This document shows positions 30,644-37,800 of a stretch of 41,061 nucleotides of DNA, in pieces. The notes beneath the pieces are model-generated. The model saw nothing but the letters and a program-made list of their open reading frames with translations. It ran no database searches and was not told the DNA's origin. How positions within the stretch are numbered: position 1 is the stretch's first letter; each line of letters opens with the position of its first letter. Both the position numbers and the translations under genes were made by a program. Source of the DNA: an archaeon (GTDB taxonomy: Archaea; Nanobdellota; Nanobdellia; Pacearchaeales; UBA284); assembly GCA_030612665.1 (NCBI GenBank), contig JAUWNL010000005.1, positions 1-41,061 of the forward strand. Direction: 5' to 3'.

Positions 30644-31501
30644 ATGAGAATATTAAAAAGAAAGAGAAAGAAGAAAGAATTTTATTATTTGCAACACTCC
30701 TTTAGAAAGAAAGGTAAGATAATAACAAGAGAGAAATATCTTGGAAGAACAATTCCAAAGAGCATTGAAAAAATTAAAAAAGATTTTCTTGATGAATGCC
30801 ATGAAATTTCTTTATTCAGTCAATTTGAAAAAATAAAAAAAAATTTTCAAAAAGAATGGGGAAAATATCCAGAATCTATTAAAGAAAAGGTAGAAGAACA
30901 GATTGCAATAGCTTTTACTTATAATACAAATGCTATTGAAGGATCAAAAATAACACTCGAAGAAACAAGAGAAATTGTTGAGCATAAAATCGCTCCAAAC
31001 AAGCTATTAAGAGATATTAAAGAAACTGAAGCGCATGTTAAAGTTTTTCTTGAAATGATAACAAAAAAAGAAAAGTTTGGTATTCCTCTTATTTTAAAAT
31101 GGCATAAAGAATTATTTGAAGAAACAAAATCAGATATTGCCGGCGAATTTAGGCATTATTTAGTTAAAGTTGGCCCATATATTGCTCCAGATTGGCAAGA
31201 TATCAAGCCATTAATGAAAAGCCTTATTAAATTCTATAACGAGAATAAGAAAAAAATGAATCCAGTTGAATTAGCAGCAAAGATGCATTATAAATTCGAA
31301 AGAATCCATCCTTTCGGAGATGGAAATGGAAGAATTGGCAGACTTATAATAAATTATATCTTGTGGCATAATAAATATCCTATGCTTATAATAGAATATA
31401 AGAAAAGAAAATCTTATTATAAAGCACTACAAAAAGATGAAAATGGTTTTTTTAATTATTTCACAAGAAGATTTTTAGCTGTTCATAAAAAAGATCAATA
31501 A
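30644..31501 (+). CDS. Fic family protein
   Basis: HPFGDGNGRIGR Fic motif; TNAIEGSKIT resembles the N-terminal inhibitory motif. Confidence 0.94.
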   Translation: MRILKRKRKKKEFYYLQHSFRKKGKIITREKYLGRTIPKSIEKIKKDFLDECHEISLFSQFEKIKKNFQKEWGKYPESIKEKVEEQIAIAFTYNTNAIEGSKITLEETREIVEHKIAPNKLLRDIKETEAHVKVFLEMITKKEKFGIPLILKWHKELFEETKSDIAGEFRHYLVKVGPYIAPDWQDIKPLMKSLIKFYNENKKKMNPVELAAKMHYKFERIHPFGDGNGRIGRLIINYILWHNKYPMLIIEYKKRKSYYKALQKDENGFFNYFTRRFLAVHKKDQ

Positions 31502-31754: not shown

Positions 31755-32255
31755 ATGGGACAAAACAATAAAAGAAAAGTTTTAGAGTTGTTTTATGAAT
31801 ATCCGGATAAAAAATTCACAGTCAGAAAGATATCTATAAAAACACGGATACCAAGGTCAACAGTTCATAAAATTCTCTTACAATTAAAAAAAGAGGAAAT
31901 GATAAATAAAGATAATTCTGCAAAAAATAATCTAAAATTTAGAATAAAAAAAACTAATCATTTTATAGAAAAGATAGTTGATTCTGGATTAATTAAAGAA
32001 ATTATAACTATGTTAAATCCTTCTTGTATCATTCTTTTTGGGAGTATAAGAAAGGGAGACTCAATGAAAGAAAGTGATATAGATTTATTTATAGAATCGT
32101 CAATGAAAAAACAACCTAATCTGCGTAAATTTGAAAAAAAATTAGGCCACAAAATTCAGGTATTTATAAAAGCAGATGTGAATAAATTACATGCTAATCT
32201 TTTTAATAATGTAATAAATGGAATTAAAATTTATGGAAGTTTCAAAATAAAATGA
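31755..32255 (+). CDS. wHTH + MNT nucleotidyltransferase
   Basis: IILFGSIRKGDSMKESDIDLFIE; N-terminal HTH. Confidence 0.85.
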   Translation: MGQNNKRKVLELFYEYPDKKFTVRKISIKTRIPRSTVHKILLQLKKEEMINKDNSAKNNLKFRIKKTNHFIEKIVDSGLIKEIITMLNPSCIILFGSIRKGDSMKESDIDLFIESSMKKQPNLRKFEKKLGHKIQVFIKADVNKLHANLFNNVINGIKIYGSFKIK

Positions 32256-32696: not shown

Positions 32697-32739
32697 AAGA
32701 TGCATCTAAAGAAAAATAAAAAAAGCGAGCTAAAAAGAA
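32697..32739. repeat. 43-bp direct repeat copy 2 (start of gene 32700)
   Basis: 41/43 identical to 31664-31706. Confidence 0.9.
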
Positions 32740-33470
32740 TTTCCTTACTCATAATTCTCACATTTCTGGTCACAATTCTCATAGCAAGTGCAAATAATTT
32801 CACAGGACCAATTAATATAACAATTAATGAAACAATAATCCCCCTCCCAATACCTCCATTAGAACCAGAATGTATCAATGATATTGATTGTAATGACAGC
32901 AACATATCAACACTTGATTTCTGTATTGATAATTTCTGTATTTATGAACCAATTAATATAAATCAGACAAATCAAACACAGCCTGAAGAACCTATACAAA
33001 TACCTCCAGAACCACCGCAACAGCCAGTGCCAGAACCACAGCCAGGACCAATCCCAATTCCAGAGCCAGAACCAGTTCAACCAATACCTGGGCCTCAACC
33101 ACAACCCATACCAGAACCAATCCCACCAGAATGCCAGGAAGATATTGATTGTGATGACAATCTCACAAGCACAAATGATTTGTGCATTAACAGCACATGT
33201 ATTTATCTCACTATCAAATGGGAAAATCCTAAAAATAATCAGATTTTTGATAATGAAATTGAACATAAAATTCTAATCTCTCAAAATAAAGATATTAATT
33301 TAACAATAGAATGTAAAATTTTTAATTCAAATTCAGAAATTATGTGGCAAATAACAAAAGAGATAACAAAACAGACCAATTCAAAGACCCAGAGTTTTAT
33401 TGAGTATATCAATACAAGCTATTGGCCTGAAGGAAACTATCATGAAAATTGTGTTGTAAAAATAGAATAA
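32700..33470 (+). CDS. secreted or surface Pro-rich protein with CxxDxDC Cys-rich repeats
   Basis: Hydrophobic N-terminus; ECINDIDCNDSNISTLDFCIDNFCIY repeats as in the 34837 gene; PEPQPGPIPIPEPEP linker. Confidence 0.75.
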   Translation: MHLKKNKKSELKRISLLIILTFLVTILIASANNFTGPINITINETIIPLPIPPLEPECINDIDCNDSNISTLDFCIDNFCIYEPININQTNQTQPEEPIQIPPEPPQQPVPEPQPGPIPIPEPEPVQPIPGPQPQPIPEPIPPECQEDIDCDDNLTSTNDLCINSTCIYLTIKWENPKNNQIFDNEIEHKILISQNKDINLTIECKIFNSNSEIMWQITKEITKQTNSKTQSFIEYINTSYWPEGNYHENCVVKIE

Positions 33471-33475
33471 CTAAA

Positions 33476-34840
33476 ATGGACGAGAAAGAGTTAAAATTTA
33501 TTTTGCAGGAAGGAGAAGGTCTAAAAATAGAATTTAAAGAATCCTTTGATCCTAAAAGCTTAGCTAAAGAAATAGTTGCTTTTGCTAATTCTGAAGGAGG
33601 CAGAATATTTTTGGGCGTTGATGATAATGGGAAAATCAAAAAAATTAATATTACAAACAAATTAAAATCACAGATTCAGGATATTGCAAGAAACTGTGAT
33701 CCTCCAATCAAAATTATTTTAGAGGAGTTTGATAAAATTTTGATAATCAACATAAAAGAAAGAAAAAATAAACCCTATAAATGCCATGATGGATTTTATT
33801 TAAGGCAGGGGGCAAATTCTCAAAAGATGACTGTGTCAGAAATTAGAGAATTTTTCAACAAAGAAGGAAAAATATTGTTTGATGAAATAATAAATAAAAA
33901 ATTCTCTTTTAAGAAAGGATTTGATAAACATAAATTCAACTCCTTTTTAGAAAAAGCAAAAATAAGTAATGTGCTTTCTATTAAAGACATTTTAAAAAAT
34001 GTTGGGGTTCTGAATGATAAAGAAGAATTTAGAAATGTTGGGGTTCTGTTTTTCTGTCATAGAATAGAAGAATTTATTCCTCAGGCCATTGTAACCTGTG
34101 TTTTATATAAAGGAAAAAATAAGGCATTTATAATTGATAAAAAAGATTTTGTAACAGATATATGTTCAAATTATCGGAATGCTGTGGATTTTCTTTATAG
34201 GAATTTAAGATTAAAATATGATATAAAGGGGTTTGGTCCCAGAAAAGAAATTTTGGAGATTCCAGAAGAAGCATTAAAAGAGGCATTAGTAAACGCATTA
34301 GCTCATAGAGACTATTCAGAAAAAGGCGCTAATGTTTTGGTAGAAATTTATGACAATAGGGTTGAGATTACTAATCCCGGCGGCTTAGTTTCTGGCATTA
34401 AAAAGGAAGAATTCGGGAAGAAAAGTCTTGCAAGAAATCCTTTGTTATTCAGTTTATTCAAAAGAATAAATTTAGTTGAAAAAGTTGGTTCTGGCATTAT
34501 AAGAATGAGGAAAGCTATGAAAAATGCGGGATTGCCACCACCAAAATTTGAATTTACAAATTTCTTTACAATTACATTCTACAGACCTAAATGGACTGAA
34601 AAAACTGTGGGGAAAACTGTGGGGAAAATTCTTGAAAAGTTGGGTGAAAAGTTGGGTGAAAATCAGAAGAAAATCTTGGAATTAATTATTAGAAATAAAT
34701 TTATTTCTATCCCAGAAATCTCAAGAGAAATGGGGATAAGCACCACTGCTGTAGAAAATAATATATCAAAACTCAAACAAAAAAAATTATTGGAAAGAAT
34801 TGGCCCTGCAAAAGGAGGATATTGGAAGATTCTAAGATGA
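33476..34840 (+). CDS. AlbA_2 (Schlafen-like) domain putative transcriptional regulator
   Basis: EFKESFDPKSLAKEIVAFANSEGG; EALVNALAHRDYSEKG; C-terminal HTH; ATG 33476 preferred over 33449. Confidence 0.87.
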   Translation: MDEKELKFILQEGEGLKIEFKESFDPKSLAKEIVAFANSEGGRIFLGVDDNGKIKKINITNKLKSQIQDIARNCDPPIKIILEEFDKILIINIKERKNKPYKCHDGFYLRQGANSQKMTVSEIREFFNKEGKILFDEIINKKFSFKKGFDKHKFNSFLEKAKISNVLSIKDILKNVGVLNDKEEFRNVGVLFFCHRIEEFIPQAIVTCVLYKGKNKAFIIDKKDFVTDICSNYRNAVDFLYRNLRLKYDIKGFGPRKEILEIPEEALKEALVNALAHRDYSEKGANVLVEIYDNRVEITNPGGLVSGIKKEEFGKKSLARNPLLFSLFKRINLVEKVGSGIIRMRKAMKNAGLPPPKFEFTNFFTITFYRPKWTEKTVGKTVGKILEKLGEKLGENQKKILELIIRNKFISIPEISREMGISTTAVENNISKLKQKKLLERIGPAKGGYWKILR

Positions 34841-37800
34841 TAAAAACAAAAAGAGGTGAAATAAAAAGAATATTTCTTCTAGCAGTTATAGCAGTACTTT
34901 TTATGCTCTTTTTAGTAACAGCATCAGATGTAACAAATGAAACTCAAGAAACTGAAAAGATAATTTTCAACGAAACAAGAACCTTTGAAATCAGACACGA
35001 TCCAAATTTAGAATGTTTAAATGATAGTGATTGTAATGATGATGATAACCTCACACTTGATTTTTGTATAGAAGGAAATTGTTCCTACATAGAAATTGAG
35101 TGTCTCGATAATATTGATTGTAATGACAGCAACATGTCAACAGAAGATTTTTGTATTGATTATTTCTGTTTCTTTAATCAAACTAACCAAACACAACCAG
35201 TATATGAATGTATAAATGATTCTGACTGCGATGATCAAAACCATCTTACATTTGATTATTGCCGTGATAACAATTGTTCATATGTTAAAGTTCAATGTAT
35301 CAATGATACAGATTGTGATGATAACAATCAAAGCACTCAAGATTTCTGTATAGATAATTTCTGTGTCTTTATCTTCAATCAAACAAACATAACAGAACCA
35401 GAAATACTTTTACTTGAACAAGGAGAAGCAGAAATAAACAAACCAGTAAAATGGAAAGCAAAAATAAAAGCTCAAAACATCAGCCATGCAAAAACCATCT
35501 TGCCTTTTGATTCAACAACTATTCTAGAACAAGAACTAGAAGAAGAAAATAATACTTTTTATTTTGAATATGAAACCCCAATCATAACAATTGAAGAGCA
35601 AGAAATTAATGAAGTTAAAGAAAAAGATAAATCAATAGGGTTGACTGGCGACGTCATCAGTCAACAAATAACACAAGAAAAAACAATTAAGAAAGTAACA
35701 ATAAGAAGCAATTTTTCAGGCCATTATCATAATGTCAAAGCCATGACAACTATTAATCTTAACAGCCAAGACCAAGACATTGAGTGTTATGATGACAAAA
35801 CAGAGATTATGACAAGCAAGGGATGGGAATACTTTTCTGAATTTAATAATGAAAATAATAAAAATAATGTTAAAGTTTTAACACTTAACCAAGAAACTGG
35901 AAAACAAGGATGGCAATTGCCAACAGCTAAGCAGGTTTATGACTATGACGGAGAGATGTATAATATAGAGCTTGAAGATGGCTCAGCTCTTGTTGTCTCG
36001 CCTAAGCATAAGGTTTATTCTTCTGAGTTAACTTCAGAAGGGGTTGTTAACTCAATTACTTCTCTTGTATTAAACACATCTACTTTAGATTGCTTCTTGA
36101 ATAATCTATCATTGCTCCAGATTGGACAATTTAGCTTTAGTGCTAATGCAAAAAAATCAACATCATTTAAAAACTCTTTTTTATCTTTGTTAGAAAAACA
36201 TTTAGATAAAGATTCAGCATCTCTTAGATATTTAGCATACTGTTCGACTGGAATAAAATCAACTAATAAAATAAGTTGTTCTCTCAATGAAGAAAATTCT
36301 TGTTTAGAAATCCCAGACTTTATCAGTATTTCAGATTCATATTTCTTAATTTCTCTTAAAGAAAGCTCAGGAGAAATTAGTTTATGTTTAGTTAACAAAT
36401 CTCTTGTAAATGAATCTTTCCAAAAATACGTAAATAATACATTACTATCTATAACCAATAACATTTACAACAAGCCCTTCTTTTTTAATTCAGCAAATCT
36501 TCCTTTCTTTGCTTTCCTTCCTAATTCAACAGACCACTTAATTAATTCCTGCTCTTCTTTAGATTCAAGCTTTTTCAACATCTGTTCTCGCCAAACTAAT
36601 TTCTTAACTTTTGATTCAACAGCCAATCGGATAAATCCAGACCAATTAACTTCTGGAAACATTTTCATATGTTCTCTTACCTGCCCTGGTACTGATAATG
36701 TTATACTTACCATTTTACCTCCAAATTGTTTAGATTATGTTAAAAAACATAATTACGTTGAAGTATTTAAATCTTTTGATTTAGATAATTCGGAAGATCT
36801 CTCAGACTTCAATTTAGTCTCAATAACAGAAGTCTATGATGAAGATTGCTCAGAGCATAGGTTTATGCTGGGATTGATGAGAAAGATCGGGATTTATGAA
36901 GAGAATCAAATTTCAAGCGACTTTCTTAAATCTGATGTTGAAAATACTTTGACAGCAGATTGCTGTTTAAATGCTAGTTCATTTGACCAAATTGCACAGC
37001 CTAACTTTAATGCAAGTGCAAATACAGGAATGTCTTTATCATGTGGAGCTAATTGTTTAGCTTTTGATTCAAATGTGCTATACTTATCTGAAGAAAAACT
37101 AGATACATACTTCTCTAATTCATTAATTGCTGATTTGATTTGCTCTGCCTTTAATTTAGAATATTTTAATAAGTCTGATTTGTTATCTCTTAGTTCTTGT
37201 AGATTATATGCTGCTGTAGATAATTCTAAACCAAGCAACCCTGAATTTATAATAATAAATCTAACTGGATTATCTCTAAAAAAAGACACTAATACATTAG
37301 TATCAACAACTAACTCCATTTACCATCCCTCTGCTTTATGTCTCTTCCAAACGCGCTCTTTAAGTTTATCTCCAAGCTTAAGGCAATCTTCTTCTGTTAG
37401 CTCTGAATGCTCTAACATTTTATCTAATTTCTTAAGCAATAAAGCTCTTTTAACTTTTTCTGATAAAAATTTCCTTACAGATTCAGACCAATTTATTTCT
37501 GGTAAGGAATCTAACTTGTGTTTTAGTTCTTCTGGCACAGACAATGTTAAATTTGGCATTTTAATACCTCCACATAATTTAGTGTATCCTGTGAAAGATG
37601 TGCAACTATTTAAATCTTTTGATTTAACGCCAATATCAGAAGTCTATGCTGATATTATCCTAGGAAAAGATATTTATTTCCTAAACCAAGACAACCAGCC
37701 AATCAAAGTCAAGTCCATAACAAAGCAGCCATACAAAGGAAAAATCTATGATGTTGATGTCCCAAATGACATCATTCTTGTTAAGAGAAACAACCTAATT

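Follow-up and report, generated by a model that had tools for sequence, protein, structure and literature searches.

The window analysed here is contig JAUWNL010000005.1 (assembly GCA_030612665.1; + strand, positions 1-41,061; 41,061 nt in all), which derives from a Pacearchaeota-like DPANN archaeon (Pacearchaeales, UBA284). A long open reading frame (ORF) at 34822..41061 on the + strand, starting at TTG 34822 or ATG 34837 and continuing beyond the end of the contig, is interrupted by an intein of 677 amino acids (35785..37815, + strand; Cys1-Asn677, with junctions E/CYDD...WSGN/S), and opposite the central part of this intein, on the - strand, lie two vapBC toxin-antitoxin (TA) operons. The host frame is open throughout. 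An earlier note on this DNA had described the + frame as free of stops from 34837 to 41061, across both vapBC pairs and their spacers, and the open stretch is in fact longer, since the stop-free run of frame 1 begins at 34762 and covers 2100 codons up to 41061, where the window ends with the frame still open. We consider it likely that these are antisense addiction cassettes occupying the endonuclease slot of the intein, with the precursor kept translatable by selection. The host ORF encodes a secreted or surface protein with an N-terminal hydrophobic segment, N-glycosylation-type repeats and three LamG domains; the portion C-terminal to the intein matches Pfam Laminin_G_3 (E 2e-61).

The intein and its antisense operons

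The intein matches NCBIfam TIGR01445 (intein_Nterm) above the cut-off of that model (E 1.8e-6). The N-terminal half of its Hint domain, residues 1-83 (35785..36033, + strand), contains blocks A and B, the latter being SPKHKVY at 35998, while the C-terminal half, residues 611-677 (37615..37815, + strand), contains block F, YDVDVPNDIILVKR, at 37747 and block G, WSGN/S. In 17 aligned inteins C1, H75 of block B, D656 and D658 of block F and the terminal N677 are invariant, and the +1 residue is Ser in every aligned member of the clade. AlphaFold2 gives predicted local distance difference test (pLDDT) values of about 90 for residues 1-83 and 611-677 and of about 30 for the remainder, opposite the TA genes. 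Using Foldseek, the top 50 PDB matches were all intein or intein-like (best E 1.4e-3, probability 1.00); a phmmer search of the entire intein against PDB sequences gave no match. These models depict a splicing-competent domain whose passenger loop, opposite the TA genes, is disordered; splicing probably does take place.

No endonuclease family was detected in the sense translation between blocks B and F, where the antisense vapBC genes fill the slot, and the sense translation matches no family other than Hint. An alternative is that a functional domain is encoded on the sense strand across from the TA genes and that the antisense ORFs are incidental or dead, as the long open sense frame could be taken to indicate; this is very unlikely, both in view of the missing family match and low pLDDT of that segment and because the antisense products have PIN_2 matches at E 1e-17 to 1e-18, retain their acidic residues in 15/15 cases and have standalone homologs.

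The first of these proteins, VapC1, is a PIN-domain toxin of 149 amino acids (36015..36464, - strand; PF10130 PIN_2, E 9e-18) whose third codon positions face those of the host frame; directly upstream of its gene is vapB1 (36465..36713, - strand), encoding a ribbon-helix-helix-type antitoxin of 82 amino acids (NF050799, E 3e-6, below cut-off). The second operon has the same arrangement, with vapC2 (36906..37319, - strand; PIN-domain toxin of 137 amino acids; PF10130, E 4e-18) directly preceded by vapB2 (37320..37559, - strand; antitoxin of 79 amino acids; NF050799, E 1e-9, also below cut-off). Acidic residues D6, E42 and D96 are the invariant ones, the VapC profile matches VapC-type PAE0151 (2fe1), and the window's vapC2 is 58% identical to the VapC of the G047 intein. 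A Shine-Dalgarno-like GGAGG precedes vapB1 (36718..36722, - strand; sense CCTCC) and vapB2 (37567..37571, - strand), and each operon has a TATA box, TTTAAAT, on the - strand (36765..36771 for vapBC1, 37608..37614 for vapBC2). Both boxes lie within the sense ORF, so that the host frame reads through promoter elements too, as the sense peptide VFKSFDL at the first of them. An inverted repeat between TATA box and vapB1, ATTATGTT-4-AACATAAT (36734..36753, - strand), is a candidate operator. Across the related inteins described below, the motif TTTAWAW is found no more than 80 nt upstream of 23/29 TA operons, versus 24% in mononucleotide shuffles. PADLOC assigned no defence family to the six TA proteins submitted to it; the modules are probably active as the predicted toxin-antitoxin pairs.

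Part of the Hint C-terminal region is repeated inside the intein (36763..36840, + strand; sense VFKSFDL...DFNLVSITEVYD), the same motif occurring at 37609-37650. A copy of this motif (FKSFDL...ITEVY) within 36763-36905 separates the two vapBC operons, and similar repeats are seen in the relatives L067, L073 and L077. Such repeats suggest that cassettes stack via recombination between Hint segments.

Absence of stops opposite the toxin-antitoxin genes

All four antisense ORFs are in the phase in which the third codon positions of the two strands face each other (c3-to-c3), as the earlier note had reported for vapC1. Its rule that a sense stop can then arise only where an antisense Tyr follows a codon ending in T or C, or an antisense His or Gln one ending in T, follows directly from that phase. 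It had also stated that those of these residues that it checked mostly follow Lys, Glu, Gln or codons ending in A or G; in the four genes the codon before Tyr, His or Gln has A or G in third position in 26/26 cases. To some degree this could reflect chance or base composition, the c3-to-c3 phase being inherently poor in stops for proteins with few such residues. Synonymous recoding with the codon usage of the window gives probabilities of zero stops of 0.51, 0.48, 0.22 and 0.92 for the four genes, or jointly about 0.05. The test is weak because the four proteins indeed contain few Tyr, His and Gln residues, which mostly follow Lys, Glu or Gln; the window by itself is only suggestive, and its recoding was dropped as proof. 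VapB is stop-poor in this phase in any case. Against a compositional origin, the same phase holds 5.05 stops per 130 codons in the window's ordinary genes, with 0/56 blocks stop-free, and the relatives of the intein decide the matter much more firmly.

These relatives were retrieved with a C-terminal profile covering only the last 74 intein residues, which is independent of the TA region. The same intein type occurs in other genomes of the order and in a few outside it; the named records are mostly metagenome-assembled genomes of Candidatus Pacearchaeota and Nanoarchaeota, with single matches, true or mis-binned, in bins labelled Methanophagales, Euryarchaeota and Hydrothermota. A viral origin was also considered, and a scan of viral_contigs with this profile gave no confirmed relative. 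TA modules are present in 20/22 complete inteins, amounting to 28 toxin modules and 58 genes, all of them antisense and none with a sense stop opposite. They are of three unrelated kinds, VapBC, RelBE-like (the profile matching Toxin RelE3, 3bpq) and DUF433/DUF5615. The principal site is the usual position of the endonuclease, between blocks B and F, but RelBE-like pairs also separate block A from the remainder of the N-terminal half (L025, L061) or lie between blocks F and G (L022, L024, L074). The phases are always the same: VapC, VapB, RelB and DUF5615 are c3-to-c3, while RelE-like and DUF433 genes are in register with the host codons.

For comparison, control homologs of the same TA genes were collected within the order, and the stops expected were computed by synonymous recoding with the codon usage of these control genes. 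In the 39 toxin and DUF433 genes within inteins 112.8 stops were expected and none is observed: 26.1 for VapC (n=18), 57.4 for RelE-like (n=11), 22.3 for DUF433 (n=5) and 7.0 for DUF5615 (n=5). For VapB (n=25) the figures are 0 versus 11.5 and for RelB (n=11) 0 versus 6.8, with some antitoxins, which match both models, counted twice. The standalone genes, by contrast, have about the stops expected of them, 209 versus 218 for VapC and 122 versus 138 for RelE-like. RelE-like and DUF433 genes, moreover, stay open in a phase that demands avoidance of TTA, CTA and TCA codons, and in keeping with this the third positions of RelE-like genes are shifted to C (28% C-ending codons in inteins versus 13% in standalone genes). 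These counts make chance or composition an extremely improbable explanation. The recoding that the earlier note had proposed as a check is thus weak for the window alone, while in the comparative set it excludes open frames being common by chance; the relatives lend strong support to its proposal of selection for a translatable precursor.

The choice of codons tells the same story. Where a pyrimidine would be possible before Tyr, His or Gln, A or G is used in 77/79 cases (97%) in VapC genes of inteins or Hint contexts, versus 72/284 (25%) in standalone VapC genes with stops, a class chosen for its stops so that the contrast is exaggerated, and 107/321 when all standalone VapC genes, including the open ones, are pooled. 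The spacing of vapB and vapC is a separate sign of constraint on the frame: the two genes share one phase in 16/16 inteins, 7/7 Hint-fragment contexts and 8/8 open standalone operons, versus 13/51 standalone operons with stops.

The antisense-only orientation can be understood in the same terms. Standalone VapC genes average 3.2 stops in the antisense c3-to-c3 frame and 11 to 18 in the other alternative frames, and the c3-to-c3 means for VapB (0.7), DUF5615 (1.6) and RelB (0.3) are likewise the lowest of the five alternative frames. An overlap on the sense strand would need far more stops removed, and selection against stops in the host frame therefore leads to antisense cargo. The TA operons would accordingly lie in the phases that are easiest to hold open.

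Origin and maintenance of the open frame

Several observations weigh against selection for a spliceable precursor, in addition to the joint probability of only about 0.05 in the window. The contig end cuts its host ORF; Pfam PF14890 (Intein_splicing) matches the intein at E 7e-5, below its cut-off; the genes within inteins are partly related, so that the pooled probabilities are overstated; the zero-stop contrast between intein and standalone genes is not significant for DUF5615 (p 0.12) and marginal for DUF433 (0.047); a fully open opposite frame is also found in 10/66 standalone VapC genes; and in G081 both inteins (L020, L021) have the same frameshift, which follows LPTERQI in the N-terminal half of Hint, their TA parts still being open.

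The open standalone genes mean that openness is not exclusive to present residence in an intein. They raise the possibility that the opposite frame became open in founder cassettes, on one or a few occasions, and has been kept by descent or by recent exchange between inteins, without present selection in each. Some of the 10 are flanked by sequence resembling the intein cassettes, and the frameshifted, decayed inteins also retain open TA regions. On the VapC tree, however, the intein genes are scattered, well-supported branches forcing 15 label changes for residence in an intein, which indicates that VapC has entered or left inteins many times. Their 23-58% identity to the window's vapC2 represents sufficient divergence for stops to accumulate, and for several of them the nearest standalone relatives do carry stops. 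When 15 independent pairs of intein and standalone genes are compared, about 10 favour the intein gene being the open one, none goes the other way and the rest are tied (p ~0.002). A founder effect is thus unlikely, and the open standalone operons look like cassettes that have recently departed from inteins or are able to enter them. At L145, L184, L187, L188 and L200, TA cassettes form standalone arrays whose opposite frames are open throughout; some of these arrays retain remnants of Hint, and they appear to be relics or donors of intein cassettes. The whole of contig L077 (1-3516; 1172 codons) is open, with three antisense vapBC operons, Hint fragments between them and both ends running off the contig.

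The G081 inteins bear on another possibility, that splicing has been lost, with the precursor or its fragments tolerated in a fast-evolving surface protein and the open frame reflecting only avoidance of truncated products. The host proteins are indeed variable, repeat-rich surface proteins. The invariance of Cys1, the block B His, the block F Asp and the terminal Asn in the aligned inteins and the high-confidence prediction of both Hint halves make this distinctly improbable. The two G081 copies would seem to be dead inteins, the frameshift being shared perhaps through gene conversion, and they indicate that an intein can die while its cassette persists. Stops or frameshifts in sister strains had been named by the earlier note as grounds for refuting selection on the frame; frameshifts do exist here, but they are located in the Hint part and not opposite the TA genes.

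The interpretation that we favour, then, is of an archaeal Hint-clade intein in which two antisense vapBC operons with their own putative promoters take up the homing-endonuclease slot, between blocks B and F. Purifying selection would hold the host frame open across genes, promoters and spacers, leaving the precursor translatable and the intein able to splice, because the host protein is made only if the entire insert is translated and spliced out; the segment opposite the TA genes would be a disordered passenger. The TA cargo would most likely serve retention of the intein: on its loss the labile antitoxin would be gone first and the lineage poisoned, addiction taking the place of homing. 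That addiction is the benefit conferred by the cargo is roughly an even bet. Much the same can be said of a broader proposal, that inteins of this clade are general cargo vehicles whose Hint loops take unrelated antisense addiction modules, single or stacked, and even a tRNA-Leu(CAA) in the sense direction, always with the host frame kept open, and that they survive through post-segregational killing or useful cargo and not homing; they would then form a new class of composite selfish element written on both strands.

The tRNA-Leu(CAA) genes, identified with ARAGORN (Rfam tRNA 49-60 bits), are found inside four inteins (L022 3327-3413, L023 778-862, L055 5908-5993 and L020 679-761), on the sense strand, with a TATA-like sequence upstream and the host frame open across them; the L023 intein has no other cargo. 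That any of these is its genome's sole copy is not supported, since tRNA-Leu(CAA)-like pattern matches, whose anticodons were not confirmed by ARAGORN, occur elsewhere in the same genomes; the copies inside inteins are apparently additional ones.

Known systems and neighbouring genes

Like LAGLIDADG/DOD homing-endonuclease inteins, the window's intein has Cys1, a terminal Asn and Ser+1, carries an insert between blocks B and F of its Hint domain, and is a selfish element translated with its host protein; those, however, carry an in-frame endonuclease at this site, where here there are opposite-strand TA operons with their own promoters, and in some relatives extra operons in other Hint loops. 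The VapBC, RelBE-like and DUF433/DUF5615 modules resemble known ones in gene order, families, autonomous promoters and PIN acidic residues, but are here enclosed by a protein-splicing element, their fixed phases allowing translation of the opposite strand too. Bacterial intein-like (BIL) domains are also Hint domains of variable secreted proteins, outside conserved catalytic sites; they differ from the present clade, which has Ser+1 and a terminal Asn as in true inteins and a large antisense cargo. In the open-access literature, searched for inteins with nested or antisense cargo, VapBC or other TA genes, no published precedent for TA modules in inteins was found, the nearest case being the ShiLan domain, an out-of-frame HNH insertion in phage methylases (PMC11855218). 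There too a selfish gene occupies another frame of the insertion, the host frame is stop-free and the in-frame product is predicted to be a loop, but the gene is HNH and there is no splicing domain. In STALEMATE, an engineered gene entanglement (PMC12455656), overlapping frames likewise couple toxin or immunity function to another gene so that mutations strike both; the arrangement described here is natural, antisense and within an intein, and would be a natural counterpart of such entanglement.

If the interpretation is correct, addiction replacing homing would be a second route of persistence for inteins and, for one clade, an answer to how inteins without an endonuclease escape loss. The clade also provides replicate natural examples of prolonged double-strand coding, for which the same genes in standalone form serve as controls, so that the cost and route of the evolution of antisense overlap become measurable. 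One of the two coding layers may be lost where an annotation pipeline accepts only a single strand at an overlap, and similar cases may therefore be hidden.

Directly upstream of the host gene, at 33476-34840, is an AlbA_2/Schlafen protein whose C-terminal domain is of RecG type; the standalone open cassette L108 has a similar AlbA_2 ORF nearby. A short secreted ORF at 32700-33470 has N-terminal Asp/Asn/Cys repeats similar to the N-terminus of the intein host protein. Also near the host gene, at 30644-31501 and 31755-32255, are genes for a Fic/Doc protein and a nucleotidyltransferase-fold protein, which are possibly further TA or defence genes.
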